Shown here: in pieces, positions 34,284 to 50,715 of the stretch
Position numbering within the stretch: position 1 is the stretch's first letter
Layout of the letters: each line of letters opens with the position of its first letter
DNA from: Paenibacillus sonchi
Lineage (GTDB): Bacteria; Bacillota; Bacilli; Paenibacillales; Paenibacillaceae
Direction of reading: 5' to 3'
NCBI RefSeq assembly: GCF_016772475.1
Contig: NZ_CP068595.1
Span: 1,054,001-1,118,000 of the forward strand
Length of the DNA: 64,000 nucleotides
Position numbers and translations under genes: made by a program
Notes under the pieces: generated by a model
What the model saw: the letters and a program-made list of their open reading frames with translations, nothing else
What the model was told of the DNA's origin: nothing
Database searches by the model: none

Positions 34284-34291
34284 CTATATAA

Positions 34292-34475
34292 TTGAACTTG
34301 TGATTTTTCTATTTGGGATTGGTCGTGACTCCAGAGAATGTTTGGACTTCCGGCCGCTGCCCATCTGCAGATTTCTTGATTATATACCGTTATTAACGGT
34401 GGAAATCCGCAGACAAAGGCGGACGCTACCGCTCCTACAGTTCCAAACTTCTCCTTCGCCACTTTTCCCTTCATT
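34292..34475. repeat. structured dispersed repeat, copy A
   Basis: About 180 bp, closely similar to 50471-50652 and more distantly to 45043-45175. It contains the stem TCTGCAGATTTC / GAAATCCGCAGA (34364-34375 and 34402-34413), an inner ACCG..CGGT hairpin, and outer TTTGGA..TCCAAA arms. No ORF. It looks like a non-coding structured repeat or miniature element. Confidence 0.75.
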
Positions 34476-34616
34476 AAAAAGAGTATAGCGGTCGCTTTCT
34501 TAGATCTATTGAAGTCCAAGCTACTTTAAGAAAAACGCCAGCCGATCTCTTGGTAAAAATTAATCTTAAAATAAATGTGAGACTTAAAGGAAGTTCTTGA
34601 TATTTGTCTCATCTAA

Positions 34617-35519
34617 TTATCCCCTGTGCATATTGCTATGCTTTTGCAGTGATTTCATTTTGAAATTTACCAGTCCAATACCTAAGATAATTAGAACAAG
34701 TCCCACCACCATCTTCGTAGTAATCGTTTCTCCCAAAAAGAAAACGCTGATCACTATTGCAATGAGTGGGACCAGAAAGTTAAACGATCCGATTTTTCCG
34801 GCTTCGCCTGATCTGACAAGCAAAAAGAAAACAAGCCAGGTTAGCGCCGTACAGAAGATCGCAATAATCGACAATGTCGAGATGAATTGCTGATTCCAAA
34901 TGATATCCGTCCAATTCTCAACGGTTGTCCCCGCAATTAACAATACAATTCCACCAAAGATCATCTGAAGAGTAGTCAACCAGATCGCATCGACTTTAGT
35001 GGATGTTTTCTTCATATAAATCGTACCGAATGTCCAAGTAATTGTGCTGGCTAAACCAAGCAAGATGCCAAGGATCGAAATATTACTAGAGCCATCAGTT
35101 ATGCTGATAACAGCAACTCCTATGAAGCCTAGAATAAGGCCAACTATTTTGAAACCGTTCATGGATTCACCCAACCACAACCAAGCTCCGATTCCAAGTA
35201 AAACGGGTTGCATAAACACGATCGTCGAAAATAAACCGGCAGGCATCATATTCAGTCCAAACGTTTGAAAGCCGAAAAAGAGAATAATATTTAGCAATGC
35301 GGAGATCAGGTAAATATGCCAAGTATCCTTCAAATTAATGTATTTATAACGTGGTATAGCGAACAGAAGCAAAATGAAACCTCCGATCGTGATCCTCAAA
35401 CCGGCGAAGAGCAATGGTGTTGCAAATTCGAGCGCATATTTAGATAACGGCCAGTTCACCCCCCACATTGCTACTAAAAACGTTAAAAGCAAAAAAGTAT
35501 GTGCTTTTGAAAGCTGCAT
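34617..35519 (-). CDS. EamA/DMT-family membrane transporter
   Basis: 300 residues with ten predicted membrane helices in two EamA halves, including the WGVNWPLSKYALEF start and GLILGFIGVAVISITDG at the end of the first half. The family exports amino acids or metabolites; substrate unknown. It is divergent from a LysR-type regulator gene, so that regulator probably controls it. Confidence 0.88.
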   Translation of the reverse strand: MQLSKAHTFLLLTFLVAMWGVNWPLSKYALEFATPLLFAGLRITIGGFILLLFAIPRYKYINLKDTWHIYLISALLNIILFFGFQTFGLNMMPAGLFSTIVFMQPVLLGIGAWLWLGESMNGFKIVGLILGFIGVAVISITDGSSNISILGILLGLASTITWTFGTIYMKKTSTKVDAIWLTTLQMIFGGIVLLIAGTTVENWTDIIWNQQFISTLSIIAIFCTALTWLVFFLLVRSGEAGKIGSFNFLVPLIAIVISVFFLGETITTKMVVGLVLIILGIGLVNFKMKSLQKHSNMHRG

Positions 35520-35620
35520 GAATTATCAGTCCCCTTTGTATAATGATGTTCACTTATGGTACAATATCTCGAAAAATAAATAAAATGCATTATTGTCATT
35601 AAGGAGATATCAAATTTGTT

Positions 35621-36514
35621 ATGAATATTTCTCAACTCATATTGTTTGTGAAGATCGTCGAGACCGGTAGCTTTACCAAGGCTGGGGAACAACTGCATAT
35701 GTCGCAACCTGCTGTAAGCCGCGCCATCTCTACACTTGAATCAGAATTAGGAGTTACTCTCATGATACGGGAACGAAGAAACGGGGTTATTCATCTTACC
35801 GATATTGGCGCGCGCCTGCTTGTCATATTCAGAGAGATTTTAAATGGATTTAATAAGGTTGAGCAGGAGGTTACCGCTGAAAAAGGATTTGAAGTTGGCA
35901 CCGTTCGTGTTGGTGTATTCCCAATTGTGTCCGCGTACTTCTTGCCGAAAATACTGCGAATCATTGGGGAGAAACATCCGGGGCTGACATTCGAACTGTT
36001 TGAAGGGACAATCGAAGAGATTAAAAATTGGCTAGAATCCAGAATAATCGATGTCGGATGGATTATTCCGCCATGCAACGAACTTGAAACGATTCCTTTC
36101 TTTCGTGATGAATTATGTCTGGTCCACCGGGATGATCATCCATTGCAAAGTCGTCAAACAATTCATATAACGGATTTAGATAATGAGCCTATGATTGTGT
36201 GCCAAGGTGGTTTTGTAACGCCGATTATCGAGTTATTCAAAGAATTCGGAACCACTTTGCACGCCAAATATAACGGCCACAACATAAACACGGCGTTGAG
36301 TATGATTCAAGAAGGGCTTGGCGTCTCGATCGTTTCGAGAACATCTTTGTCACTATCGTCACTACCGCCAAATGTCCGCATCAGGACAATTGATCCGCAA
36401 CCCGTTAGAGAGATTCACCTGGCTGTTCCTTCTTTAAAGGAGTCCTCGCACGGGGTGAAACTCTTCATTCAGACTGCAAGAGAGCTGTATTTATCTGGGG
36501 ATCGGATCCAATAA
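35621..36514 (+). CDS. LysR-family transcriptional regulator
   Basis: 297 residues. The N-terminal winged helix is plain (FVKIVETGSFTKAGEQLHMS, then QPAVSRAISTLESELGVTL), followed by a LysR substrate-binding domain. It starts about 100 bp from the divergent EamA gene, the usual arrangement where a LysR protein controls its neighbour and itself. The effector is unknown. AAGGAGATAT lies upstream of the ATG. Confidence 0.92.
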   Translation: MNISQLILFVKIVETGSFTKAGEQLHMSQPAVSRAISTLESELGVTLMIRERRNGVIHLTDIGARLLVIFREILNGFNKVEQEVTAEKGFEVGTVRVGVFPIVSAYFLPKILRIIGEKHPGLTFELFEGTIEEIKNWLESRIIDVGWIIPPCNELETIPFFRDELCLVHRDDHPLQSRQTIHITDLDNEPMIVCQGGFVTPIIELFKEFGTTLHAKYNGHNINTALSMIQEGLGVSIVSRTSLSLSSLPPNVRIRTIDPQPVREIHLAVPSLKESSHGVKLFIQTARELYLSGDRIQ

Positions 36515-36699
36515 TGTGCATCTTTACGCATTACAGAATACTCTCAAAACATCGCAGTACCCCGAATAACTAAAGAAAAGGTATGATCAGTCGCCTTTTA
36601 AAGTATACGAAGTAGAGATTGGCTTCCAATATGTAATAGCCACGTTAACATTGGTTCCTTAACGGACAAACTAATCTGTCCGAAAGATTACAAAAAAAT

Positions 36700-36727
36700 G
36701 AACAGCCTGCTAGCCTGCAGACTGCTC
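36700..36727 (-). terminator. terminator at the end of the orphan ORF
   Basis: GAACAGCCTGC (36700-36710) pairs with GCAGACTGCTC (36717-36727) with two G-U pairs. Seven T's follow on the minus strand (36692-36698). The stop codon of the 73-residue ORF lies inside the stem. Confidence 0.7.
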
Positions 36728-36931
36728 AATATTGATTTGTGCAAAAATGGGGAAAAACATGTTCTTCTCGTTATCTGTATAAACGTGTTCCAAACTTTTC
36801 AACAAAAAAACCTTTAATTCGTTTAACATTTTTTCTTTCATTTGCGGTAAGACCAAGCCACCATAGCTACTGCGACATTCAATGTTCGGTTGTTGATAAA
36901 AATCGCAATCGCTCATCTTTTTCACCGCCAC
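36710..36931 (-). CDS. 73-residue orphan protein
   Basis: An unrecognised small protein with two cysteines in its N-terminal third (SDCDFY and IECRSSYGG) and an amphipathic middle (EKMLNELKVFLLKSLEHVY). It starts at GTG 36931 or possibly ATG 36916 after GGCGGTG. It sits just downstream of the glmS terminator and has its own strong terminator, which supports a real gene. The codon use looks more AT-rich than that of neighbours. Function unknown; could be species-specific. Confidence 0.5.
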   Translation of the reverse strand: MAVKKMSDCDFYQQPNIECRSSYGGLVLPQMKEKMLNELKVFLLKSLEHVYTDNEKNMFFPIFAQINIEQSAG

Positions 36932-36951
36932 TTTTCATAGTCCTTATAAAA

Positions 36952-36989
36952 AGAGAGCAGCCTGAATTATTTCTTTCAGGCTGCTCTCT
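36952..36989 (-). terminator. glmS terminator
   Basis: AGAGAGCAGCCTGAA (36952-36966) and its exact complement TTCAGGCTGCTCTCT (36975-36989) form a 15-bp stem about 90 bp after the glmS stop; on the minus strand TTTTTATAAGG follows. Confidence 0.75.
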
Positions 36990-37082
36990 AGGCGTATTAC
37001 ATTTACATAGTGGTTCACGACATTTATTACTGGTTCCACTGTTTTATTTCACCGGACAAAGATTTTATAATACCTTAACCCC

Positions 37083-38915
37083 TTACTCCACCGTAACGCT
37101 TTTCGCCAGGTTTCGTGGTTTATCGACATCGTGGCCCAGGGCCAGCGAAGCGTAGTAGGCGAGCAATTGCAGCGTAACTACGGACAATGCAGCGGTCAGC
37201 AGCGGCAGGGTCTTAGGAATCACGAAGGCTTGATCGACGGATTTCAACAGGTCGGTAACATGCTCTTCGTGCGTAATCGCCAGGACGTCTGCGCCGCGGG
37301 CTTTTACTTCCTTGATGTTGCTGACGGTTTTCTCCAGAACGGATTCCTGGGTGGCCAGGGCAATCACCGGAACGCCCTCTTCGATCAGCGCCAGGGTGCC
37401 GTGCTTCAATTCGCCCGCAGCGTAAGCTTCGGAGTGAATATAGGAGATTTCTTTCAGCTTCAGCGAGCCTTCCTGAGCAACAGCGTAATCAACGCCGCGG
37501 CCAATGAAGAACAGGTGCTTATGATCAGCAATCTGCTCAGCGTAGGTTTTGATCGCTTCTTTTTGGGCGAGAATTTGTTCTACCTGCTCTGGCAGGGATT
37601 GCATAGCGGCCAAAATCTCAGCGACCTGTGCTTCGCTCTGAGTACCGCGCACTTCAGCCAGATACAGACCAAGCAGCGTGAATGCGATAATCTGTGAAGT
37701 GTAGGCTTTGGTGGAAGCTACGGCAATTTCCGGTCCAGCCAGGGTTACCAGCACATCATTAGCTTCACGGGCAATGGAGCTGCCCACTACGTTAGTAATT
37801 GCCAGTACATGCGCACCGTTCGCTTGCCCTTCGCGCAGCGCTGCCAGTGTATCCGCAGTTTCGCCGGATTGGCTAACTACGATAACCAGGGTTTCCGGTG
37901 TAACGATCGGCGAACGGTAACGGTATTCCGAAGCGATATCATTTTCTACAGGAATACGTACCAGGGACTCGATCAGATTGCGTCCAACAAGTCCGGCATT
38001 ATAAGCCGTACCACAGGCAACGATCTGGATGTTGCGGATGTTCTTGATCTGCTCTTCCGTCAGGTTAAGCTCTGGCAGAATCACTTTGCTGCCTTCAGCA
38101 TTCGTACGTCCACGCATCGTATCGCGGTATGCTTTTGGCTGCTCGTGGATTTCTTTCAGCATGAAATGCTCATAGCCGCCTTTTTCTGCGGTAACTGCAT
38201 CCCAATCGACAGTAATCATTTCCCGAGAAATAAAGTTGCCTTCAATCGTCATCAATTCGACAGCATCCCGTGTCAGTACAGCCATTTCGCCGTCGTTCAA
38301 AATATATACGTTGCGGGTATATTCCAGCAAAGCAGGAATGTCGGACCCGATAAAGTTTTCGCCTTCGCCCAGACCAATGATTAGCGGGCTTGCTTGACGC
38401 ACAGCCACCAGTTTGTCGGGCTCATATTCAGTAAGAACTCCCAGTGCAAATGCACCGCGCATGAAGGTGATCGCTTTTTGTACAGCTTTTACGATATCAC
38501 CATTGTATTCGCGGGCGATCAGGTGGGAAATCACCTCCGTATCCGTTTCGGAAGTAAAGTGGCATCCCCCGGCAATCAGTTCTTCCTTAAGGTCAAGGTA
38601 GTTCTCCACAATCCCGTTGTGTACGACCGAGAACTTCTTGCTCTCGTCGGTGTGCGGGTGGGAGTTCTCATCGGAAGGTTTACCATGCGTCGCCCACCGT
38701 GTATGCCCGATTCCGGCGCTGCCGGTAAGTGGAGTTGCTTCCAGTCTGGATTCCAGGTTCGCCATACGGCCTTGTGCTTTTACAACCTGAAGGCCCTCTT
38801 TGGTAAATACGGCAATCCCTGCCGAATCATAACCGCGATACTCCAGCTTCTTCAAGCCCTCTACCAAGATCCCCTGCGAATTCTGATTCCCGATATATCC
38901 TACAATACCACACAT
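37083..38915 (-). CDS. glmS: glucosamine-6-phosphate synthase
   Basis: 610 residues, full length. The N-terminal glutaminase has Cys2 as nucleophile (MCGIVGYIG). The C-terminal half has two SIS sugar-isomerase domains (VSQSGETADTLAAL) and ends with the family tail PRNLAKSVTVE. It makes glucosamine-6-phosphate from fructose-6-phosphate and glutamine, the first step of amino-sugar supply for peptidoglycan. It has its own promoter and lies behind a glmS ribozyme that shuts it off when the product accumulates. It is the last gene of the sigW-glmS block. Confidence 0.97.
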   Translation of the reverse strand: MCGIVGYIGNQNSQGILVEGLKKLEYRGYDSAGIAVFTKEGLQVVKAQGRMANLESRLEATPLTGSAGIGHTRWATHGKPSDENSHPHTDESKKFSVVHNGIVENYLDLKEELIAGGCHFTSETDTEVISHLIAREYNGDIVKAVQKAITFMRGAFALGVLTEYEPDKLVAVRQASPLIIGLGEGENFIGSDIPALLEYTRNVYILNDGEMAVLTRDAVELMTIEGNFISREMITVDWDAVTAEKGGYEHFMLKEIHEQPKAYRDTMRGRTNAEGSKVILPELNLTEEQIKNIRNIQIVACGTAYNAGLVGRNLIESLVRIPVENDIASEYRYRSPIVTPETLVIVVSQSGETADTLAALREGQANGAHVLAITNVVGSSIAREANDVLVTLAGPEIAVASTKAYTSQIIAFTLLGLYLAEVRGTQSEAQVAEILAAMQSLPEQVEQILAQKEAIKTYAEQIADHKHLFFIGRGVDYAVAQEGSLKLKEISYIHSEAYAAGELKHGTLALIEEGVPVIALATQESVLEKTVSNIKEVKARGADVLAITHEEHVTDLLKSVDQAFVIPKTLPLLTAALSVVTLQLLAYYASLALGHDVDKPRNLAKSVTVE

Positions 38916-39184
38916 TATAATTTCCCCCGTCCAATTTATATTGTGGGCGGCATAAGGAAAGAAACGTGCCGTGCGGCATGTTTTTGAGAAAAAGCAAATA
39001 TTCTGTTGTATTTCAGGCTCACCAAGTTCACACGATTACGCCATCCTTAAAAAAGAACAGTATCCGTTTCCCTTGTGTCTATGTTCATGAAATGCACAGT
39101 CTTCTCCTCTGCCGCAGCAGAACGCTCTGTGTTTCTCTCCGTTACTGCACTAGCCCATGAAATGAAAAATAACTTCTGGTTGCA

Positions 39185-39382
39185 CCCACAGAAACGTTGT
39201 GTGAAAGGTCGCCCTCGCATTTTCCGTTCCCGTTTACGGCTCTGGTGCATCACCGGGAGGTCCCCGCCGAACATTTCGAACACCTCCACCTCGTCAGCTT
39301 ACATCTGCCGTGATCCGTTCAAGCCTCGCCCTACGGGCAACTGCTGTCCCTTCTCCCCGCGCAAGATCAAGCTCTGGCGCTT
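39185..39382 (-). ncRNA. glmS ribozyme/riboswitch
   Basis: The minus-strand leader of glmS begins with A-GCGCCAGAGC, the cleavage site (between 39381 and 39380) and P1. The conserved core TGACGAGGTGGAGGTGTTCG lies at about 39268-39287, followed by GGCGGGGACCTCCCGG. These are diagnostic of the GlcN6P-activated self-cleaving ribozyme. Cleavage lowers glmS expression when GlcN6P is high. The 3' boundary is approximate. Confidence 0.92.
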
Positions 39383-39434
39383 GCTGTTGCCAACCTTACT
39401 ATCCCCGCTTTCCTTCTGGAATGACACTTAATCT

Positions 39435-39463
39435 ATTATATGCACCTTACATCGTTTTTGCAA
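39435..39463 (-). promoter_or_regulatory. glmS promoter, sigma-A type
   Basis: TTGCAA (39458-39463) and a perfect TATAAT (39435-39440) on the minus strand are 17 bp apart, about 55 bp upstream of the ribozyme cleavage site. Confidence 0.8.
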
Positions 39464-39589
39464 TGCTGTATCACAGGAATACTTTTGACAGTTCGTACAG
39501 ATGAATGGACATAAATTTAAATATTCAGCCGCTGAAGCAGATCAAGCACTTCCTTCACCGGCCGAACAACTCTAACTTAATCTGATTAA

Positions 39590-40930
39590 TTACACCAGTT
39601 CACGCTGAACAACATCAACAATGTGACCAACATAAAGATCCAGCTCCGCCTTATCCGGACCTTCCGCCATCACGCGGATCAACGGCTCTGTACCGGAAGG
39701 ACGCACCAGCACACGGCCATTATCGCCGAGCTTGCCTTCCACTTCCTGAATAGCCGCTTCAATCGCCGGATTGTTCGGATAGTTGGTCTTATCCTGTACG
39801 CGAACATTCACCAGCACCTGCGGATATTTGGTCATCATCGATTTCAGCGCACTGAGCTTCTTGCCCGATGACTTCATTGTGTCCACCAGCTGGATCGCGG
39901 TCAGAATACCGTCACCTGTGGTGTTGTAATCCAGGAAAATAACATGACCGGACTGTTCCCCGCCCAAATTATATCCACCCCGGCGCATTTCTTCCATTAC
40001 GTAGCGGTCACCGACTGCGGTTTTTGCCGTGTTCAGCGCCAATTGCTCTGTCGCTTTGTAGAACCCGATATTGCTCATTACTGTGGATACAATGGTGCCA
40101 TCCTTAAGCTTGCCGGCACGGTTCATTGCATCCCCGCAAATGCAGAGGATAAAGTCTCCGTCGACTTCGTCACCATTCTCATCAATGGCAATCAAGCGGT
40201 CAGCATCCCCGTCAAAAGCAAGTCCCAGATCCGCGCCCTGACGCAGAACTTCCTCGCGCAGCGTCTCCGGATGTGTGGAGCCAAAGCCGTCATTAATGTT
40301 CAGTCCATCCGGTTCCGAACCGATGGCAATCACTTCCGCCCCCAGCTCTCTGAACAAGCGCGGCGCGAGTTCATAGGCTGCTCCATGAGCGCAGTCCAGT
40401 ACCACCTTAAGTCCAGCGAAGCTATGGGAAATCGTTGTTTTAAGATAGTCCAAATATAAATATTTTGCATCATTATCTAGGCTTACTGTCCCCAGACCCG
40501 CACCTACAGGGCGCGGCAATTCATCGATTTCGGCATCCATCAGCTCTTCAATCCGCAGCTCGGTTTCATCTGTCAGCTTGAAGCCGTCTCCGCCAAAAAA
40601 CTTAATCCCGTTGTCTTCAACCGGATTATGCGAAGCAGAAATCATCACTCCCGCATCAGCCTTCAGCAATCTGGTGATATAAGCCACCGCAGGCGTGCTT
40701 ACGATACCCAGACGAATGACCCGGGCCCCAATGGACAACAGGCCCGCTACAAGCGCCGATTCCAGCAGTGGACCCGAAATCCGCGTGTCCATGCCTATAA
40801 CCACCTTAGGCTTCTCCACATTTCCTGCCAATACATATCCTCCGCAGCGGCCGATGCTATAGGCCATTTCTGCAGTTAATTCACGGTTTGCAACTCCGCG
40901 CACGCCATCTGTTCCAAAATACTTACCCAT
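39590..40930 (-). CDS. glmM: phosphoglucosamine mutase
   Basis: 446 residues. The phosphoserine loop is [13 protein letters not shown] with Ser100, and the metal loop is DGDADR. It converts glucosamine-6-phosphate to glucosamine-1-phosphate, between GlmS and GlmU in UDP-GlcNAc synthesis. It follows cdaR and precedes glmS, the standard Firmicute order that ties c-di-AMP synthesis to cell-wall sugar supply. Full length. Confidence 0.96.
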
Positions 40931-41040
40931 CTGTTTTCTCCTTTAGAATACGCTGCTTCAGCTTAATGAATTATTGTATGAATGAATTCTTGTTTCGTGT
41001 GCTTCTGACTCACAGGTTAGACGCCGACCGGCTGAAAAAG

Positions 41041-42501
41041 TTACGTTCCATCCGTACTGCTTATATTGTTGCCAACTCCGTTAAGAGCACCTGAATTAGC
41101 ACCGTTCTCCGGTACCCCTTCGGAAGGGGTTGGCGTGACTGTAGGCTCAGCAGTGTCCGGGCTCTGTGGAGGTGCTGTCGGGCTCTCTTCAACGAAGGCT
41201 GGCTCCGTACTTGGCTCAGGGGTCACTGCTGCACTGCTGTTATCCGGCGTTGCTGTGGGTTCCGGCGTGGCCGGAGCCAGCAGTTCTACCGTTGCCGTGA
41301 GCCGTTGCGATGCATTTGCGAGAGCAATGAACCTGGGCAGCGAGACATGCAGCGTTACGGCATGGTTACCGGCCGTGAGGCCAACAACATCCGCCACCAC
41401 ACTGATATTATTTTTGTCCAGCTGATTCAGCAAAGCCGGGGCTCCAGATACTGTCAGAGCAACAGCTTTGCTGGCTGGATCTGTGATCCGAGCGGATAGC
41501 CCGTTGTCTACCCCCTCCAGCTTAATGGGGATATTATCGATGGTTTTCTCGGCTACTTCCGAGGTCACTACAGACACATTCAAGACTGCAGGTTCAATCT
41601 TCACCGTGCCTTCCGGAGCAGGCAGCTCCAGCTTCAGCTCTTTTGTACCTGCGGAATCTATTGCGCTTAAATTCAGCGTTGCTTCATAGGAGGATAAACC
41701 GGCTAAGGACTCTTCGGTTCCATATACCGTTACCGTGTCCTGCCCGGGCAACACCCGGGACAACGCCAACGCTCCTGGAAGCTGGCCGGTAAAGCTGATG
41801 TCAAGCGGCAGGCTTTTGAATGGCATAGTGACCGGCAGATCCACAGTAACAGCGGACGGCTCGATGACCGCATCCTTAATCTCATTGCCGCTGCTGTCAA
41901 CTGCGTACAGCTTCAGCTTTTTATCCTTAATCGTCTCGCTTTCTCCATCCAGTTCAATGGTCCCCTGTACCTTGGACACCTTGCTAAGCTCACTTGAAGC
42001 CAGCGTAACCTGCGCTTCCGCTGGATCTATGACAGGTGCACCCACCTGATAACCCGCCGCCGGCTTCCCTTTAGTAACGATGGAAACAGGAAAAGACTTG
42101 GTATTCCGCAGTTCCACACGGACATTCACTTCATTGGGGTTAATATCCTGCAGCGTCACTCCGCTCGGAAGTGAATAATGAAGCGGCAGTGTGGTATCCC
42201 CCGGTTGAATGTTGCTTAAATCAATCCACACTTTATAGGCATCCGAAAATTTATAGGTAAGATCCGATTTTTTGCCCAGGACCTCGAGTCTGACGCTTAC
42301 GGCATCCTGGGATGTGATTACATATTTGTCCTCATCGAATCCTTTGACCTCTATCTTAACATTTTCGATAATTTTGGACTCCTTGTTGACCGTGGTCTGG
42401 CTGGTAGGTGCAGTATCTACATGGACGATGGTCCACAGGATAATCGCAAAGGCAAGGGCAAGAATTTTGTTAAAATTGTTGTTCTTCATCCACTTATCCA
42501 T
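41041..42501 (-). CDS. cdaR: CdaA regulator, YbbR-domain protein
   Basis: 486 residues from ATG 42501, chosen because AAGGGGG precedes it; the ATG overlaps the cdaA stop. One N-terminal membrane helix (ILALAFAIILWTIVHV) is followed by about four YbbR beta repeats outside the cell and a Thr/Pro/Glu-rich C-terminal tail. In other Firmicutes CdaR binds and regulates the diadenylate cyclase CdaA. Complete. Confidence 0.92.
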   Translation of the reverse strand: MDKWMKNNNFNKILALAFAIILWTIVHVDTAPTSQTTVNKESKIIENVKIEVKGFDEDKYVITSQDAVSVRLEVLGKKSDLTYKFSDAYKVWIDLSNIQPGDTTLPLHYSLPSGVTLQDINPNEVNVRVELRNTKSFPVSIVTKGKPAAGYQVGAPVIDPAEAQVTLASSELSKVSKVQGTIELDGESETIKDKKLKLYAVDSSGNEIKDAVIEPSAVTVDLPVTMPFKSLPLDISFTGQLPGALALSRVLPGQDTVTVYGTEESLAGLSSYEATLNLSAIDSAGTKELKLELPAPEGTVKIEPAVLNVSVVTSEVAEKTIDNIPIKLEGVDNGLSARITDPASKAVALTVSGAPALLNQLDKNNISVVADVVGLTAGNHAVTLHVSLPRFIALANASQRLTATVELLAPATPEPTATPDNSSAAVTPEPSTEPAFVEESPTAPPQSPDTAEPTVTPTPSEGVPENGANSGALNGVGNNISSTDGT

Positions 42502-43324
42502 TGTTCTTATCCCCCTTCCGTTTCCAGAAAGCGGAGCTTTTCTCCTTGAGCGATGAAGTGGCACGCAGTTCCTCATACAGCTTGGAGATCAAGGATTCTT
42601 CCTTAATATCGCGCACGATCTGCCCGTTAATCGCCAGCGAAATCTGTCCGGTCTCTTCCGAGACTACAACGGAGACAGAGTCAGCTACTTCACTAATCCC
42701 GATCGCGGCGCGGTGACGGGTCCCCAGTTCCTTGCTGATAAACGGATTCTCCGACAGCGGCAAATAACAGGCGGCAGCGGCAATCTGCCCTTCCTGCATA
42801 ATCAGCGCACCGTCGTGCAGCGGCGTATTCGGAATAAAAATATTGATCAGCAGCTCGGAACTGACCACAGAACGCATAGGAATACCGGATTCCGTATATT
42901 CGTTGAGCCCGGTCGCTCTTTCGAAGACAATTAACGCGCCTATTTTTCGCTGCGCTAAATAATTCACAGCTTTAATGACTTCACCGATCAGCTTGCTGAT
43001 CTCTTCATCGTTCTCGGCAGCCCGTCCAAAAAACTTGCCCCGGCCAAGCTGCTCCAGCCCCCTTCGCAGTTCCGGCTGAAAGATAATAAATATCGCAAAG
43101 ATCCCGAAGGTAAAAATCTGGTTCATCAGCCATTTGAGGGTATACAAATCGAGCAGTGTGCTCAGTGCCCAAATCACAACCAGCACCAGAATCCCCTTGA
43201 GCAGCTGAACCGCCCGGGTTCCGCGCACCATATTGAGCACTTTGTAAATAATATAGCTGACGATCAGTATATCGATTATATCTTTAATGGAATCTTTCCA
43301 TGTCATGTCTGAAAAATAACTCAT
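42494..43324 (-). CDS. cdaA: diadenylate cyclase, membrane type
   Basis: 276 residues. Three N-terminal membrane helices are followed by a DAC domain with DGA at 171-173 and RHR at 203-205, the catalytic motifs. It makes c-di-AMP, which controls potassium and osmolyte transport and wall homeostasis. It lies upstream of its regulator cdaR and of glmM, with which CdaA is known to interact. Confidence 0.95.
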   Translation of the reverse strand: MSYFSDMTWKDSIKDIIDILIVSYIIYKVLNMVRGTRAVQLLKGILVLVVIWALSTLLDLYTLKWLMNQIFTFGIFAIFIIFQPELRRGLEQLGRGKFFGRAAENDEEISKLIGEVIKAVNYLAQRKIGALIVFERATGLNEYTESGIPMRSVVSSELLINIFIPNTPLHDGALIMQEGQIAAAACYLPLSENPFISKELGTRHRAAIGISEVADSVSVVVSEETGQISLAINGQIVRDIKEESLISKLYEELRATSSLKEKSSAFWKRKGDKNNG

Positions 43325-43470
43325 GCCAAAACCCCCGTCAATTCATATTAGCTGGGTTTATGTAAAATGTCTGTAAGTTCTCTAACATATCTAGGTTATA
43401 ACGTTCCAGCCCAGGTTGCAAGTTTAGACCCGCAGGGATTCACCGCATGATATTTCCAGGCAGCAAAAAA

Positions 43471-43497
43471 GCGCCATCTTTCCGGAAAAAGAGGCGC
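43471..43497 (-). terminator. hairpin between rsiW and cdaA
   Basis: GCGCCATCTTT pairs with AAAGAGGCGC (one bulge) around a short loop, followed on the minus strand by six T's (43465-43470). It would end or attenuate sigW-rsiW transcription before cdaA. Confidence 0.6.
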
Positions 43498-43532
43498 AAA
43501 TGATATTTCTGCTAAAAGTGACCAAGTGTTAT

Positions 43533-44147
43533 TTAACGGTAGGCAACTTCAGAGAACATGTTCGTCACTTTATACCAGAGCCAACTTACCGCTTGGTCTA
43601 TGCTTTTGACTTGCCCGGAGATATGGGCTGTTGAAGCCTGATACAAGGAGCCGTCGATCACCGTCACATTGCCGTTCACTTCACCATACACCTGAGTTTT
43701 ACCATTCTCCACCGTCAGATCACCGGATATTGTTTTGCCGGAAGGTACAATAACCGTATCACCCTTGATGACAACCTGTTCCAGGTCACTTCCCCTGACA
43801 ACAAGCTGCCGGTCCTGATTCCAAAAAGTAACGGAGCTCATCAGCATTACGAGAATAAATACGGACGCCGCTGTAAGCGCAGGATGCCGCTTGATCCAGG
43901 TAATAAAAGCCCGCTCCTTCTTGACATGCGGTAATGAATTCATAATCCGGCCTACAAGATCCTCAGAAGCCACAGGATTCTGGTGCATCAGGGAAAACAT
44001 CAGCATATCGGTCTGTTCCAATTCTTTGAACTTGGCACGGCAATCTGTACAGGATAGAAGATGCTCCTTCAATTCCCTCTGCTGCAGTTCGGGCAAGTCG
44101 TCATCCAGGTAGTCGTGCATCATAGAGACGGCCAGTTTGCATTCCAT
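43533..44147 (-). CDS. rsiW: anti-sigma-W factor with zinc-finger ASD
   Basis: About 204 residues from ATG 44147, preceded by AAAGGA. The anti-sigma domain has Cys3 and the H29-X3-C33-X2-C36 zinc motif. One membrane helix (TAASVFILVMLMSSVTFW) follows, then a beta-rich outer domain of short VxGD/VNGNVTVIDG repeats. It holds SigW inactive until site-1/site-2 proteolysis under envelope stress. It directly follows sigW. Confidence 0.9.
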   Translation of the reverse strand: MECKLAVSMMHDYLDDDLPELQQRELKEHLLSCTDCRAKFKELEQTDMLMFSLMHQNPVASEDLVGRIMNSLPHVKKERAFITWIKRHPALTAASVFILVMLMSSVTFWNQDRQLVVRGSDLEQVVIKGDTVIVPSGKTISGDLTVENGKTQVYGEVNGNVTVIDGSLYQASTAHISGQVKSIDQAVSWLWYKVTNMFSEVAYR

Positions 44148-44269
44148 AGGAGCCAATCCTTTCATGAGTGCTATTTAATTATTACATGGCAAAGGGGCAG
44201 AGCGCATAAGACTTGCTTAACTTACATACGTCGCTGCCCGTCAGGCGTTTCATAAAAAATAATCTATTT

Positions 44270-44836
44270 TTACATTTTGGGGCCTAATTTTTTACGTAAA
44301 AATTCCCGTCCGCGGTGCACGCGGGTCTTAATCGTAGTTACAGGCATATCCATGACGTCACTAATCTCCTGAAGAGATAAATCCTGCAGGTAGCGCAAAA
44401 TCATCACCGACCTGTATTTCACAGGCAGGCTGTCGATGGCCTCATAGATCAGACTCTGCGTCTCGGAGAGCAGCAGTTCTGTTTCCGGGGTCACATTATC
44501 GCTGGGGATCATGGAATAGCCGTCAATCCCCTCCTGGTCATTCATCTCGGCATCCAATGAATACGTCGGCCGCCGCTTGCGGAGCCGGTCAATACAAAGG
44601 TTCGTGCCGATGCGGTAGATCCAGGTTGAAAATTTCTGTTTGTCATCGTAACGGTCCAAATTCCGGTACACGCGTAAAAACGTTTCCTGAACAATATCCT
44701 CCGCCTCATGGCGGTTGTTCAGCATCCGGTAGGCCAAATGATATATTTTGTCTTTATATAGTTCCACAAGCTCGGCAAATGCCCTTTGGTCGCCCTTCAA
44801 GGCGAGCTTTGTCAATCTGCCTTCCAAATTCTCCAC
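44270..44836 (-). CDS. sigW: ECF sigma factor SigW
   Basis: 188 residues. Sigma region 2 is seen in HEAEDIVQETFLRVYRNLDRY and region 4 in LSLQEISDVMDMPVTTIKTRVHRGR. It directs the envelope stress and antimicrobial peptide regulon in Bacillus. It heads sigW-rsiW-cdaA-cdaR-glmM-glmS, the conserved order. Confident by sequence and position. Confidence 0.92.
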   Translation of the reverse strand: MENLEGRLTKLALKGDQRAFAELVELYKDKIYHLAYRMLNNRHEAEDIVQETFLRVYRNLDRYDDKQKFSTWIYRIGTNLCIDRLRKRRPTYSLDAEMNDQEGIDGYSMIPSDNVTPETELLLSETQSLIYEAIDSLPVKYRSVMILRYLQDLSLQEISDVMDMPVTTIKTRVHRGREFLRKKLGPKM

Positions 44837-44905
44837 CGATTAACTCCCCCAGACTTGCCGCCCTTGGTCGTTCATCTCTTGATTGTCCACGGTACAAGCT
44901 CTTAA

Positions 44906-44934
44906 ATCGTAATTCAAGTTTGTGTAAAAATCAA
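44906..44934 (-). promoter_or_regulatory. possible sigW promoter
   Basis: TTGATT (44929-44934) and TACGAT (44906-44911) on the minus strand are 17 bp apart, 70 bp upstream of sigW. I did not find a convincing ECF-type TGAAAC/CGTA pair, so autoregulation is not shown. Confidence 0.4.
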
Positions 44935-45042
44935 GGATAGTATTGTTACCTTCTATATATATTGGGCAAAAGCAATTGCACAGTAGGGGCAGGTGGATAC
45001 GGCGGTATTCAGGAATATCCGCAGATTCATCGCGGCTCCGTG

Positions 45043-45175
45043 GAACATTTGGATTTCCGGCCGCTGTTATTGTCAGATTTCCTGATTGAAGCCGCGAGCA
45101 GCGGTTGAAATCTGACAATAAAGGCGAACGCTGACGCTCCTACAGTTCCAAAATTCTTCTCCATGCCTTCTCCTC
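45043..45175. repeat. structured dispersed repeat, copy C
   Basis: A diverged copy of the repeat at 34292 and 50471, in the gap between sigW and ppc. Its main stem is TTGTCAGATTTC / GAAATCTGACAA (45071-45082 and 45108-45119), with different bases from the other copies but restored pairing. No ORF in the gap 44837-45403 is convincing. Confidence 0.7.
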
Positions 45176-45326
45176 ACCTATACCCTAGCGTTACTTTGCC
45201 GCTTTGCCCAAAATCCATATCGGCAACAATGGGCAGGGGCAAAAGGCAGGAAGCTGCTTGATCCTTGCAGCTTCGTTTTTTGAATCCGTCCCTACCGGAT
45301 TCCCAAGTCCCGGTTACCAAAGCAAA

Positions 45327-45366
45327 ATCCCCGTCCGGCCTCCAGTACAGAGGCGGACGGGGATTG
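45327..45366 (-). terminator. ppc terminator
   Basis: ATCCCCGTCCGGCCTCC pairs with GGAGGC-type bases ending in GGACGGGGAT around AGTACA (GGACGGGGAT begins the stem on the minus strand). Only ATTTTGCTTT follows, so the T-run is weak. Confidence 0.55.
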
Positions 45367-45403
45367 GGAAGCGGACGGGCCGGCTTCCAGGTCCACTATA
45401 ATA

Positions 45404-48196
45404 TCAGCCGGTATTCCGCAGTCCGGCGGCAATGCCATTGATTGTAAGCAGCACCTCGCGCAGAAGCTCGGCGTCATCGCCCTCGGCTTCACGAAGGGCT
45501 CTCAGCTCAGACAAAAGCTGCACCTGCAGGTAGCTGAGCGGATCAACGTAAGGATTCCGCAAGCGAATGGATTCCTGGATGACAGGAACGTTATCCAGAA
45601 TATCCTGCTGTCCGGTGATCTTGAGAATCAGCTCGGAGGTCAGCTTGAATTCCGCTTCGATCTGTCCGAAGATGCGCTGACGCGCCTCCTCATTTTTGCC
45701 CATGCCGGCGTATTCCTTGGCAATAATCAGATCCGCCTTGGCAATCGCCATTTGCAGAGTATCAATTAACGTAGTGAAGAACGAAAATTTTTCATACATA
45801 TGCTGCATGATCTTCAGGTTCTCTTCCTTGTCGTCGTAGAAGCTCTGCAGCCCCGTTCCGGCAGCGTACCATGCAGGAAGCAGGTAACGGCTCTGTGTCC
45901 AGGCAAAAACCCACGGGATTGCACGCAGATCTTCAAAGCGGTCGCTGTTCTTTCGTTTGGAAGGACGCGACCCAATATTAAGCTCTCCAACCTCAGGAAG
46001 CGGCGTCGATTCCTTGAAGTAGTTCAGGAAATCCGGATCACGGAAGATCAGGTCCTGATATTTGCTCAGTGATACTTCAGAAATCCGGGCCACAATCTCT
46101 TCCCATTTAGGCTCGTACAGATCAGCCTGCGGTGATCTGGCATTAATCGCTGCCGTGATCAGCGCGGAGGTTGCCTGTTCCAAGCTGCGGTAGGCGATTC
46201 CCTGCATCGAGTACCGTGAGGAGATGACCTCGCCCTGCTCTGTAATCTTAATGCCGCCGCCAATCGTCGAGGCCGGTTGTGCCAGAATACTGCGGTTCAG
46301 CGGCATGCCTCCACGGCCAAGGGCTCCGCCGCGGCCATGGAAAAATTTCAGTTTGATGCCGAATTCATCCGCCGTAGCCGTAATTTCCTTAAGTGCCACC
46401 CGCAGCTCATAGTTGGCGGTAACCACGCCGCCATCCTTGTTGCTGTCCGAATATCCCAGCATGATCTCCTGCAGGTCATTCATCGCCCTAACCGCATCAC
46501 GGTAGATCGGCAGGTTGAGCAATGTCCGCATGATTTGCGGTGCATCATGCAGATCGTCAATGGTTTCGAACAGTGGCACAGCCTGAAGTGTGCAAACAAC
46601 CGTTCCATCGTTGTCTTTGCGGAATAAGCCGACTTCCTTGGAGAACACCATAACCTCCAGAATATCGCTCGCAGCTTCAGCCATACTGATCAGGTAGCTA
46701 GTGATACATTGTTTGCCGTACTCCTCTTGCGCCGTAAAAATGGCACGGTACACAGCAAGACATTCCTCCGTGCTTTCGCTGTAGGTCTGATACGGCGAAG
46801 TTAGCGGACGCGGATCATTCAGCAGTTTTTCCAGAAGCTCGATCTTCTCGCTCTCCTGCAGTTTGGCATAATCCTGCGTAACATTCATTTTGGCCAGAAT
46901 CTCGGTCATCGCATTTTCATGCTCCTGGCTGTGCTGGCGGACATCAAGAGTTGCGGTATGGAATCCAAACAACTCTACCTGGCGAATCAATTTCTTAATG
47001 TAGGTATCCGCAACATAGTCGGCATAGTGATGCCGCAGACTGCGGTCAATCACATTCAAATCATCTATAAATTGCTCCGGTGAAGCGTAGCGCTCAGGCG
47101 TACCTTTTTTCTCATCATCCATAACGTTCTGTGTCTTCGCGATCATATAGGCAAGCTTAATCCGGTACGGCTCATTATCATTATGCCAGGATTTCGCCTT
47201 ATCCAGATGAATAATGCCCCGATCCAGTTCAATGGATTGCAGCAGCTCCGGCGTTACCTTAACGATGCTTGTACTAAAGCTCAGATACTGCATCAGTTCG
47301 CGCATAATGCGCTGATATTCCCGAATCGCCAGCTTACGCTGCAAACGCAGAGTCTGTAAGGTCACAGCCGCCGTTACTGAAGGGTTGCCGTCACGGTCCC
47401 CGCCGATCCACGAGCCAAAACGCAGATAGGTTGGAACATGCCAATTCTGGCCCGGATAATATTTGCTTAGACATCGTTCAAGTTCTTGATACACATCCGG
47501 CAGCACCTGAAAAATCGTCTCATGGAAATAGTACATTCCATTGCGGACTTCATCCAATACCGTAGGCTTGCGGTCACGCAACTCATCCGTCTGCCACAAG
47601 GTAATAACTTCATTCAGCAGCTTCTCACGCAGCTGTTCGCGTTCCCGGAATGTCAGGGTAGGGTTATCCAGACCCATCACATCATCGGAGATACGCTTAT
47701 GAATATCAAGGATCGCCCGCCGCATGGCTTCCGTAGGGTGAGCCGTCATGACCAGCTCCAGTGACAGGCCGTTCATGATCTCATGAACATCCTCGTGTGA
47801 GAAATCCCGCTCGCGGAGCTCCTGAATCGCGCTTTCGATAGAACCAGGCTGTACAGTCTCCCCGGCTGAACGTTCGTAGTCGCGTTTTCGGCGAATCCGG
47901 TGGTTCTGCTCGGCAATGTTCACCAATTGAAAATAAATAGCGAACGCCCGTATCACCTGGTGTCGATTCTCAGGATCAAGTGAATTGATTAGCTCCTTGA
48001 ATTCATTGTGCAGTTCAGGCAAAAACAATGAGCGCAGCGATTTGCTGGTTTCGCGGATCTTCTCTACGATCTCCAGCAGTTCGTTGCCGCCTTGGTGAAC
48101 CAAGACTTCGCCCAAAATATTCCCCAGGAACCGTACGTCACGCCGCAGCAGATTGTTAGAGTTGCTTTTGCTCACGGCAGTCGTAAGTTCGGTCAT
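45404..48196 (-). CDS. ppc: phosphoenolpyruvate carboxylase
   Basis: 930 residues, full length. His153 in the TAHPTEAMRR motif and the FHGRGGALGRGG loop carry out catalysis. The conserved C-terminus RNTG is intact. It carboxylates PEP to oxaloacetate to refill the TCA cycle. It is monocistronic; a TATAAT-like -10 lies on the minus strand near 48327-48332. It separates the sigW-glm block from the phage-type region. Confidence 0.97.
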   Translation of the reverse strand: MTELTTAVSKSNSNNLLRRDVRFLGNILGEVLVHQGGNELLEIVEKIRETSKSLRSLFLPELHNEFKELINSLDPENRHQVIRAFAIYFQLVNIAEQNHRIRRKRDYERSAGETVQPGSIESAIQELRERDFSHEDVHEIMNGLSLELVMTAHPTEAMRRAILDIHKRISDDVMGLDNPTLTFREREQLREKLLNEVITLWQTDELRDRKPTVLDEVRNGMYYFHETIFQVLPDVYQELERCLSKYYPGQNWHVPTYLRFGSWIGGDRDGNPSVTAAVTLQTLRLQRKLAIREYQRIMRELMQYLSFSTSIVKVTPELLQSIELDRGIIHLDKAKSWHNDNEPYRIKLAYMIAKTQNVMDDEKKGTPERYASPEQFIDDLNVIDRSLRHHYADYVADTYIKKLIRQVELFGFHTATLDVRQHSQEHENAMTEILAKMNVTQDYAKLQESEKIELLEKLLNDPRPLTSPYQTYSESTEECLAVYRAIFTAQEEYGKQCITSYLISMAEAASDILEVMVFSKEVGLFRKDNDGTVVCTLQAVPLFETIDDLHDAPQIMRTLLNLPIYRDAVRAMNDLQEIMLGYSDSNKDGGVVTANYELRVALKEITATADEFGIKLKFFHGRGGALGRGGMPLNRSILAQPASTIGGGIKITEQGEVISSRYSMQGIAYRSLEQATSALITAAINARSPQADLYEPKWEEIVARISEVSLSKYQDLIFRDPDFLNYFKESTPLPEVGELNIGSRPSKRKNSDRFEDLRAIPWVFAWTQSRYLLPAWYAAGTGLQSFYDDKEENLKIMQHMYEKFSFFTTLIDTLQMAIAKADLIIAKEYAGMGKNEEARQRIFGQIEAEFKLTSELILKITGQQDILDNVPVIQESIRLRNPYVDPLSYLQVQLLSELRALREAEGDDAELLREVLLTINGIAAGLRNTG

Positions 48197-48455
48197 GCTG
48201 CTCCCCCCATCCTCTTCCGGATCAATGCTTTTAACATTGTCTATTTGAAGCTTTCCTCATATCATACAATAAAACTGCCCGGAAATCTCCAACTTCATTA
48301 CGCGGTAAAGCGATACAGCAATTACGATTATACACCAATCCGGCTGTTTATACAGTCTAAAAAAATATATGTAGCTCTTCCTATTTATGCTGCCTGATCT
48401 GCGTCGGGTTTATGTAGTTTTGGTGTAATAATATATCACGCAGAAACACAAAAAA

Positions 48456-48477
48456 AGCCAGCTCCAGGGAGCCGGCT
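48456..48477 (-). terminator. terminator of the lysis cassette
   Basis: AGCCAGCTCC pairs with an AGCCGGCT-containing arm around AGGG, followed on the minus strand by seven T's. It closes the phage-type transcript just upstream of ppc. The 48197-48455 gap holds no gene apart from the ppc promoter. Confidence 0.7.
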
Positions 48478-48495
48478 GTCAATTAAATTCACGCT

Positions 48496-48777
48496 TTATT
48501 TTGAAGTGGTTCCCGGGCGGTCATTGAAGGCTAATTCAAATAAACCTGTCGCGGATAATCCGGCAAGCCCCCCTGACCATAACCGGAGCGTAAGCCCCAG
48601 GTCGGTAAAAGGATACGCAGCAGCCCCTATGAGCAGCCCAATCCCAAGTCCGATAAAAGGCACTGCATTGCGCGGAAGATTGATATTATTTTTGATCAAC
48701 TGCACCAAGGCAAGTGTAAATACCGCTAATACCGATGCAAAAGCCAATACATTATCCAGAATATCACTTTGGATCAT
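48496..48777 (-). CDS. phage holin-like small membrane protein
   Basis: 93 residues from the ATG at 48777, chosen because AAAGGAGTGA lies upstream. Two or three hydrophobic helices (LAFASVLAVFTLALVQL, PFIGLGIGLLIGAAAY, GGLAGLSATGLFELA) and a short charged tail are typical of phage holins. It lies next to a peptidoglycan hydrolase at the end of the tail operon. Its specific holin family was not identified. Confidence 0.6.
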   Translation of the reverse strand: MIQSDILDNVLAFASVLAVFTLALVQLIKNNINLPRNAVPFIGLGIGLLIGAAAYPFTDLGLTLRLWSGGLAGLSATGLFELAFNDRPGTTSK

Positions 48778-48875
48778 AAAAGTCACTCCTTTCAGTTTCG
48801 CGTTTATCATTCAAATATGTTAATATTTCCAATCCAGGGTGATTATTGCTTATTATTCATAATATACAGCTGCGG

Positions 48876-49586
48876 TTATTCTAGCGGCCATTTGCCACTT
48901 GTAATCTCAATAGTTTGGGTAACCGAATCATAACCAACCGAAGCTCCCAGCGCCTCCGCTACAGCACGTACAGGCACATAAGTTACACCGTTCTCTAACC
49001 GGCCGTCGGCTATTTTTGCGCCATTTACTTTTACTATTGTAATCACATCACTATTCAGATTCTGTTCCTCCTTAGTCCTTCCGTTGATTAGCTTATACGC
49101 TGCTTCCACCGCTTGTAATGAAGGCTGTACTCCCGCTCGCAGCTTGGAAAGCGTTAATCCGAAGCTCATCTGAAAATGGGGATAATCCTTTAGACTCGTC
49201 CAGTCTCCACCCCATTCAAACCCCAGTCGCTTAGCCTGCTGCACCACCTCCAGCCAATCCGCTGCCTGATCATTGTCTCCGTCGCGCACCATGTCCCAGG
49301 ACACGCTTGAGCCATTCGGCAGCAGCAATGCAAAATCAACCGCCAAGCCATAATTGTGGTAGCTCTGTCCTCCCCGGGCATTGGTAACAATCGCCCCCGG
49401 CTTCGTGCGTCCTTGAGCATAGAGCGCATCCTGCTCAGCAGCCGTCCGGAGTCCTTGCGTAATGAGGATCGGGACACCGCAGGCGTAACTGCGTTCGATT
49501 AGAGCACCCACTGCTGCGAGTACGACGGGATGCAGGCCGATTAGGCGGGAAGCGGATTTATTTTTGATTTGTGTCAGGGTCAGCAT
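48876..49586 (-). CDS. M15-type endolysin with copper-amine-oxidase-like stalk
   Basis: 236 residues from ATG 49586, which has GGGAGGAG upstream. The N-terminal part is a VanY/M15C L-Ala-D-Glu peptidase (SYHNYGLAVDF and DYPHFQM zinc and active-site motifs). The last 60 residues resemble a copper amine oxidase N-terminal-type wall domain (NGVTYVPVRAVAEALGASV). No signal peptide, so it should use the holin for release. Confidence 0.8.
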   Translation of the reverse strand: MLTLTQIKNKSASRLIGLHPVVLAAVGALIERSYACGVPILITQGLRTAAEQDALYAQGRTKPGAIVTNARGGQSYHNYGLAVDFALLLPNGSSVSWDMVRDGDNDQAADWLEVVQQAKRLGFEWGGDWTSLKDYPHFQMSFGLTLSKLRAGVQPSLQAVEAAYKLINGRTKEEQNLNSDVITIVKVNGAKIADGRLENGVTYVPVRAVAEALGASVGYDSVTQTIEITSGKWPLE

Positions 49587-49950
49587 GGCTTGCTCCTCCC
49601 TTCTTGCCCTCCTGGAGAACAATGAACAAATCTTGACGTTTCGTTAACACCAATAAGGTTAGGATCAGCAGCCCAATCGTGGTTCCGGTCTGGGCAACCG
49701 CCAAGGCCTCTGTTTGGAGTGATGCCAGCACAGCACCTGCTCCAGGCACTGCAGTGAAGCAAATCCACAAGGCGATTGCCATTTGGAAGGTGTAGGCACT
49801 CAGAAAGAAAAAGGCTGCCACCATAAACAGGCTGACCGCCTTTGCCCGCAGACGTCTGCGAAAATACAAAAAAAGCGCAGCTATCAGCAGCAGCGCACAA
49901 ATCAAAGACATCGAATATGCAATTAACAGCAAAACATCAATTACGCCCAT
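49558..49950 (-). CDS. four-helix membrane protein of the lysis region
   Basis: 130 residues from ATG 49950 after GGGGTG. About three or four membrane helices and a charged tail (LQEGKKGGASHADPDTNQK). Its 3' end overlaps the start of the endolysin gene by 29 bases, so the two are probably coupled. No family recognised; the position suggests holin-antiholin or spanin-like function, not shown. Confidence 0.55.
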   Translation of the reverse strand: MGVIDVLLLIAYSMSLICALLLIAALFLYFRRRLRAKAVSLFMVAAFFFLSAYTFQMAIALWICFTAVPGAGAVLASLQTEALAVAQTGTTIGLLILTLLVLTKRQDLFIVLQEGKKGGASHADPDTNQK

Positions 49951-50134
49951 TGTTGACACCCCGATCATAGATTAGAAATTCGGCAAATCCGTTATTTTGG
50001 ATCTCCTCCTGAATCTCTTTGGATACGTCCTTATATCGAAGGATAGAGAACATTACCCGGGCCGAGGCTTGGGTCAGCTCCCTTTCCTTTTCCCGGTGCA
50101 GGGGCGATAATCGTTTGATCCATCTACTCAGCAC
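49937..50134 (-). CDS. small soluble phage-region protein
   Basis: 65 residues from GTG 50134, which has GGGGAGG upstream. Basic and helical (SRWIKRLSPLHREKERELTQ). Overlaps the next gene by 14 bases. No family assigned. Confidence 0.45.
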   Translation of the reverse strand: MLSRWIKRLSPLHREKERELTQASARVMFSILRYKDVSKEIQEEIQNNGFAEFLIYDRGVNNGRN

Positions 50135-50135
50135 G

Positions 50136-50444
50136 TTATCCTCCCCGATCTTCTTCATTTACTACATTCACACCGCTTGATGTGTAATCAACTTTCAGTC
50201 TCTGCAGCACTTCAAGCGTGGGTGCCATGAAATCTGAGCGTTCTTTATCCAGAATATTTTGCAGACGGTCCCGGTCTTCTTCAGCCCGCTCGAGCAGTTC
50301 ACGCGGCACCAGATTCCCTTTGACAATCGAGCGCAAAAGCACCAGAACAATCACCAGCAGGATCAAAGCCACGATATAAGCCAGCCCATATTTATCAGCC
50401 AGGGGAAGAATTTTCTCCAAGTTTGCAATATCGTTGCTGTCCAT
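50136..50444 (-). CDS. membrane-anchored coiled-coil protein of the lysis region
   Basis: 102 residues. An N-terminal membrane helix (AYIVALILLVIVLVLLRSIV) is followed by a charged, coiled-coil-like segment (LLERAEEDRDRLQNILDKER). Position and layout resemble XhlA/XhlB-type or spanin-like lysis accessory proteins, but the family is not identified. It begins the lysis cassette downstream of the tail genes. Confidence 0.5.
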   Translation of the reverse strand: MDSNDIANLEKILPLADKYGLAYIVALILLVIVLVLLRSIVKGNLVPRELLERAEEDRDRLQNILDKERSDFMAPTLEVLQRLKVDYTSSGVNVVNEEDRGG

Positions 50445-50470
50445 TGTTTCACCCCTTTCTTTTTAGTAGG

Positions 50471-50652
50471 TTGAACTTTAGATTTTCATATTAGGTCTGG
50501 TCGTAACTGCGGGGAATGTTTGGACTTCCGGCCGCTGTTATCTGCAGATTTCTTGAATTTATACCGCTTTTCGCGGTGGAAATCCGCAGACAAAGGCGGA
50601 CGCTACCGCTCTTCCAGTTCCAAACTTCTCCTCCGTCACTTTCCCCTTAATT
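50471..50652. repeat. structured dispersed repeat, copy B
   Basis: Closest to copy A at 34292-34475, including the flank GGTCGT..ACT. Stem TCTGCAGATTTC / GAAATCCGCAGA (50541-50552 and 50579-50590) with inner ACCGC..GCGGT. It lies between the tail fibre genes and the lysis cassette, inside the phage-like region, so the repeat has been gained or kept there. Confidence 0.75.
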
Positions 50653-50715
50653 GATTCTCAAATTCAATATATATAGTTTTAGAATAATCCCCTTGTCCCC
50701 GGGGGCAAAATAAAA

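Follow-up and report, generated by a model that had tools for sequence, protein, structure and literature searches.

The window analysed here, 64,000 nt of Paenibacillus sonchi (GCF_016772475.1, contig NZ_CP068595.1, positions 1,054,001-1,118,000; from here its genome is G000), contains three intergenic copies, A, B and C, of a repeat with nested stems. A previous sequence-only reading proposed that this repeat is either a new structured RNA or a miniature mobile element. Which of the two is it, and which DNA strand carries the fold? Both parts of that proposal are supported, the first by covariation and the second by TA sites, inverted ends and an IS630-type candidate partner, the choice between RNA and single-stranded DNA (ssDNA) apart. 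There is good support for a mobile element whose fold is strand-specific and widely conserved. We favour a non-autonomous mobile repeat of two layers, with IS630-type ends outside and a strand-specific folding core inside, a reading to which we assign a probability of roughly 0.6.

The folded core and its strand

In the following, the + strand is the strand on which the sequence-only reading was made, and core coordinates are given on the (-) strand, the one we infer to be folded. On this reverse strand the core of about 113 nt forms a hairpin with interruptions: P1 (in the common type TTTGGA / TCCAAA), P2 and P3 (13 bp), followed by a terminal hairpin. Next to P3, some copies have an additional hairpin module about 40 nt long. 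Thirty copies served to build a covariance model of the core (R1). Covariation was analysed in a diverse set of 71 sequences, made up of the three window copies, 58 of 68 representatives (10 were left out for reasons of size) and 10 distant copies. In this set 92.3% of the cells pair, and both-side changes occur in 22 of the 32 pairs. Double-change cells numbered 217 versus 44.7 +/- 6.2 in 500 shuffles, which do not control for relatedness, and the covariation score was 0.332 versus 0.128 when shuffled and 0.040-0.113 with the partners slid. Covariation as a sign of selected folding, originally claimed from three copies, thus exceeds both controls. RNAalifold did not predict P1 on the diverse set; the P1 arms form duplexes of -18.9 kcal/mol with their own partners versus -13.7 kcal/mol when swapped, the own partner being better in 63/71.

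The strand follows from the mismatches. Read on the + strand, P3 contains 56 A.C and 2 G.T mismatches in 71 well-formed stems, the subset of the 77 arm pairs in which 9 or more of the 13 pairs are Watson-Crick; without position 7 the count is 19 to 2, and over all 77 stems 67 to 15. At position 7, 37 of 71 sequences have G.U, 17 G-C and 13 A-U. The P1 arms are more stable on the reverse strand in 65/71 and less stable in 5. The excess of A.C on the + strand and the steadier reverse-strand P1 arms therefore identify the reverse strand as the one kept folded, with G.U pairs allowed. The letters in its unpaired stretches are near-invariant.

These counts also bear on a mutational by-product, in which template switching in hairpins, or conversion, would match the arms without any selection on folding. 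The exchange of P3 as a block at 3/24 shared loci (see below) fits such a process, yet template switching should remove wobbles, whereas G.U at position 7 is kept in more than half of the sequences (37/71), and the 56:2 asymmetry speaks against it as well. We regard this explanation as extremely improbable.

Within the window, the cores of copies A, C and B lie at 34337..34451 (-), 45044..45156 (-) and 50515..50628 (-), corresponding to R1 matches at 1088337-1088451, 1099044-1099156 and 1104515-1104628, respectively; the strand of copy A was taken from the wobble test. Copy A (34287..34475, +) comprises a left IS630-type end (TATAATTGAACTTG, from 34287), the left arm, the core and most of the right arm; its right end repeat is not recognisable. 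Copy B (about 50464..50676, +) is a whole element with a degenerate left end, TAGTAGGTTGAACTT, and the right end CAATATATATAG. Copy C consists of the core only, without recognisable IS630-type ends, and the outer arms seen in A and B have no counterpart in it. The boundaries first proposed were thus approximate, and the layout described as common to all three copies applies to the core of about 113 nt.

The main stem is TCTGCAGATTTC / GAAATCCGCAGA in copy A (34364-34375 / 34402-34413) and copy B (50541-50552 / 50579-50590), and TTGTCAGATTTC / GAAATCTGACAA in copy C (45070-45081 / 45107-45118). These sequences were found as the sequence-only reading gave them, and its three pair replacements (C-G to T-A, T-A to G-C and G-C to T-A) are all real. 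As evidence for covariation the comparison of C with A is weak by itself because the stem of C was exchanged as one block between close relatives. The choice of strand did not hold: what is an A.C mismatch in the A/B stem on the + strand becomes a G.U pair when the reverse strand is read. Folding energies of five strands (both strands of A and C, the + strand of B) gave z values of -3.0 to -4.9; among 200 shuffles of each, 0, 0, 0, 0 and 1 equalled the copies.

Copy A lies, as stated before, beside a gene remnant, with an EamA transporter gene on its other side. The PhzF-like remnant, a 130-aa open reading frame (ORF) at 33861-34253 (-), covers no more than positions 166-274 of the PhzC-PhzF model (281 positions) and is probably indeed a gene remnant. 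The placement of C between sigma-factor and ppc genes is borne out by an ECF sigma-factor gene and a PEPcase gene, and copy B is near two ORFs without Pfam match. The neighbours of the window copies are on the minus strand, so that the folded strand is sense to them. The six neighbouring ORFs represent four different Pfam families, with two lacking any.

In an Rfam scan no family reached its gathering cut-off at the copies; the only match at cut-off in the window was a glmS ribozyme/riboswitch elsewhere, at 39180-39392 (-), with 59.3 bits versus a cut-off of 37. Sub-threshold Rfam matches were obtained at A and C only. An HDV-like (hepatitis delta virus-like) ribozyme was considered and rejected, its sole lead being a CPEB3 match at C with 14.4 bits versus a cut-off of 35. 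There was no Rfam intron match at copies A, B and C. Spread in the manner of an intron or retron was rejected as well, no core being present in any of 29 RVT_1 loci. By these searches the repeat is neither a known Rfam family nor a group II intron derivative, and no account of it was found in the open-licence papers searched.

Distribution, ends and mobility

A blastn search with copy A against its own genome yielded 41 matches, and the covariance-model search 81 places at E <= 0.01 and 75 at E <= 0.001, one of them being the opposite strand of another. A relative, G043, whose aligned blocks are 95-99% identical to G000 over a 400-kb stretch, has at least 150 core matches; 24 other genomes of the genus have 5 to 85 each, and 4/15 genomes outside the genus have 1 to 7. 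The model search of relatives that the sequence-only reading had suggested reveals a large family: at E <= 1e-5, with at most 12 candidates scored per genome and rough model E-values, the core occurs in 222/296 genomes and 30/48 genera of the order. A scan with a 19-base core motif returned at least 120 stretches, which among the matches listed all belong to Paenibacillus or Bacillus sp. FJAT-27264. Plasmid and phage collections contained no core match. In distant copies from four other families (L117, L124, L125 and L126, the last weak by the model with E 2.3e-4) the fold is kept while the letters of P1 and P3 are largely different. In Paenibacillus sp. HW567 (L417 4440-5460) five copies are arrayed head to tail, repeating about every 199 bp.

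The ends were scored in 179 copies drawn from G000 and G043. Both IS630-type ends (TATARRNTGAACTT) were present in 128 copies, one in 22 and neither in 29, and the left-zone end pattern occurred in 3/178 control zones. Derivatives with ends and little or no core exist as well, and in L178 a copy sits within an end repeat that predates it. Immediately next to the ends of numerous copies (L002, L009, L016, L088, L089, L312, L178 and others) lies a second dispersed repeat, about GTTGGAAAAAGGGAACTTATT, which occurs also at other sites.

Presence/absence sites with TA duplication were found in the comparison of empty sites, which had likewise been suggested as a check. From 106 G043 copies, 24 map to three G000 segments, 10 being filled and 14 called empty by script; at one of the latter, L196, both the copy and its counterpart are truncated, leaving 13 polymorphic copies. 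The TA duplication is clean at L300, L259 and L272, and L237 is consistent with it if one base changed in G000. G043 lacks two sequences present in G000: at 980,708 an element, with extra bases, and at 1,043,230 a derivative about 137 bp long. At the locus of copy B the element is present in G015 and G043 and missing in G042. A longer target site, CTAG, was considered and dropped, as the clean presence/absence sites show TA and L259 is CTAT.

Such polymorphism is hard to reconcile with a host regulatory or structural RNA present in many copies, for which the mobile ends would be secondary. The near-invariant unpaired letters of the folded strand and the occurrence in 222/296 genomes would suit a host RNA. 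Against it, 13 of the 14 copies called empty in G000, out of 24 mapped, lack a truncated pair, copy numbers range from 5 to 85 across 24 genomes of one genus, and the six neighbouring ORFs fall into four Pfam families or none. We consider a host RNA very unlikely.

A candidate source of the ends was obtained from 30 scanned DDE_3 loci, two of which (L539 and L525) enclose a transposase domain with the same 12-letter ends and TA flanks. The elements with matching ends are 1137 bp long in G040, with a 353-aa ORF (DDE_3, HTH_33), and 1133 bp in G009, where the ORF is divided between two frames. At a third DDE_3 locus, L549, the domain is surrounded by end-like pairs that are weak (2+2 substitutions). 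IS630 elements duplicate TA. By sequence, the repeat would be classed as an IS630-type miniature inverted-repeat transposable element (MITE), with matching inverted ends (not in C nor in those 29 copies) and TA target duplication, and judging from its ends and TA sites its mobiliser is likely of IS630 type.

Orientation, exchange and proposed mechanism

Orientation was scored relative to the replication fork, with the origin placed at dnaA and the terminus of G000 assumed to be opposite dnaA. The core runs against the fork in 131/150 cases among the G043 matches listed and in 153/179 copies of both genomes. Using ORFs of at least 90 codons as genes rather than annotated genes, the ratio was 97:6 with both neighbours leading, 45:14 with neighbours disagreeing, 8:2 with both lagging and 3:4 with one unassigned (7 copies); 214/280 ORFs were leading in a 400-kb sample. 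The common orientation is shared by 12/13 G043 copies absent from G000, or 13/14 counting the G000 copy at 980,708, and the bias is the same (25:4) in copies that lack end repeats. Among the controls, IS200-type (Y1) copies were codirectional with the fork in 13/13 cases (copies of 157/158 aa; two 136-aa copies are taken up below and 8 fragments were left out), group II introns of the 430-aa type in 21/21 (G000 and G043; 8 other RVT_1 rows left out) and DDE_Tnp_1 elements in 10/20 (near-full copies; 10 other rows left out). The folded strand is the lagging-strand template and, in direct reading, purine-rich like the leading strand.

The orientation raises the possibility of an ssDNA element of the IS200/IS605 or REP kind, in which the reverse strand would fold on the lagging-strand template and be cut and pasted by a Y1 (HUH) transposase, the flanking TA being recognised instead of duplicated. 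IS200-type copies of G000 and G043 show a similar orientation, the template expected is the one that folds, and the same rule has been reported for IS200/IS605 (PMC5371812). No Y1 gene bounded by these ends was found among 23 Y1 loci of G000 and G043, however; three of them hold cores and end-repeat pairs outside the Y1 domain match, as ordinary neighbouring copies and not as ends of a Y1 element, and the inverted ends are those of a DDE (IS630-type) element. We hold an ssDNA element of this kind to be unlikely.

An ordinary IS630-type MITE of the Correia/ERIC/RUP kind would explain the ends, the TA sites and the behaviour of the copies. Its fold would be kept for no other reason than that transcripts with tight hairpins are less harmful, and its orientation would result from selection against harmful effects on neighbours together with strand composition, in agreement with the stronger bias where both neighbours are leading and with the purine-rich folded strand. 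The bias nevertheless persists with mixed and with both lagging neighbours and in 12/13 polymorphic copies, and some cores lack these ends, while those of other families keep the fold with largely different letters. This explanation, too, appears improbable to us.

Changes at shared loci affect whole units. The shared-locus set comprised 27 rows, four of which (L016/L234) were ambiguous, with two copies lying close; the 23 kept and copy C gave 24 loci. Counted over every row, P3 differs with both arms changed together at three of them (C, L068/L269 and L069/L223), and the 40-nt module was gained or lost at another three (L079, L080 and L082). At L068/L269 the locus-specific letters are kept on both sides of the P3 patch. 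Among the matches listed, L067/L197 and L072/L197 have nearly identical cores and strongly different outer arms on both sides. The L067/L072 arms still pair within each genome (-34.4, -65.8, -38.5 and -36.8 kcal/mol; 0/200 shuffles as stable) and pair much more weakly across genomes (-19.3 to -27.9 kcal/mol); the replaced arms were not found elsewhere among the loci examined. A single conversion tract explains the P3 and module changes but not the paired replacement of outer arms. The same loop change, CTTGATTGTTACC to CTTCAATTGATACC, was noticed at L007/L247 and L013/L246 in the same two genomes.

In the two-layer mobile repeat that we favour, an IS630-family transposase acting in trans would move the repeats and duplicate the TA target. 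The folded strand would function in single-stranded form and be recognised by a factor; RNA within transcripts is the likelier form, the exposed lagging-strand template the other. The one-way orientation would arise during or soon after insertion, for instance by transposition coupled to the fork, and dispersed copies would exchange contiguous hairpins by conversion. For several families of insertion sequences, beta-clamp binding and an orientation linked to replication have been described (PMC5371812); by analogy, such binding could be one way for an IS630-type transposase to give orientation. The core also occurs without IS630-type ends and in other families of the order. In a wider reading, which we offer tentatively and think rather doubtful, the core would itself be selfish, a folded element that predates the transposon ends and is distributed more widely than they are. 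As strand-specific RNA or lagging-strand ssDNA it would couple its spread to replication, the IS630-type ends being one of several vehicles, and selection on the fold, working by compensatory changes and by the swapping of entire hairpins among copies, would be selection for its own propagation.

Several points weigh against the two-layer repeat. G.T is better tolerated than A.C in ssDNA, too, and therefore the wobble test does not single out RNA. Only three polymorphic sites are clean, the others carrying small or larger extra changes, and TA flanks by themselves would also be left by an element that makes no duplication and whose ends include TA. The three DDE_3 matches of the P. sonchi genome lack such ends, and no partner was found there, in a search that did not include G043. 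The 179 copies are not independent, about 24 loci being common to both genomes, and G043 has two Y1 copies of 136 aa that run against the fork. The bias with both neighbours leading exceeds that in the remaining assigned contexts (97:6 versus 53:16, p 0.0018); gene context therefore adds to the orientation bias but does not explain it.

The two-layer repeat would be a further large family, without a name found in Rfam or the open-licence papers searched, in an order of bacteria associated with soil and plants. Its copies number tens to hundreds per genome and differ in presence between close relatives, which makes it a natural test system. Two questions could be put to it: is it as RNA or as ssDNA that selection acts on the fold of bacterial MITEs, and how does an element with symmetric ends gain an orientation tied to replication?

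Comparison with known repeat families

With IS200/IS605 and REP elements the Paenibacillus repeat has in common an orientation that follows replication and the dependence on strand-specific hairpins (PMC5371812), whereas it shares inverted ends with an IS630-type element and lacks an end-bounded Y1 gene among the 23 loci. Correia/NEMIS and ERIC are likewise small folded repeats with inverted ends and TA at their termini, and Correia elements also form length classes with an extra internal segment (PMC2229807); their sequences and hosts are unlike those of the Paenibacillus repeat. The accessible part of that article makes no mention of compensatory covariation or replication-linked orientation for them.

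BOX elements resemble it as modular folded repeats but differ in their modules and ends and in their placement, 60.8% being on the leading strand (PMC3049150). The corresponding shares in pneumococcus are 60.9% for RUP and 63.3% for SPRITE, and all three mirror the coding bias (PMC3049150). RUP, a 107-bp pneumococcal MITE with IS630-Spn1 as the proposed mover and TA in its target sites, is similar in being intergenic, in its high copy number, in inverted ends resembling those of an IS630-type element and in TA insertion (PMC2229807). The Paenibacillus repeat differs from RUP in its longer core with covarying stems, in the occurrence of this core also without the ends, and in its orientation, 85% of the copies running against the fork compared with the 60.9% of RUP on the leading strand (PMC3049150).

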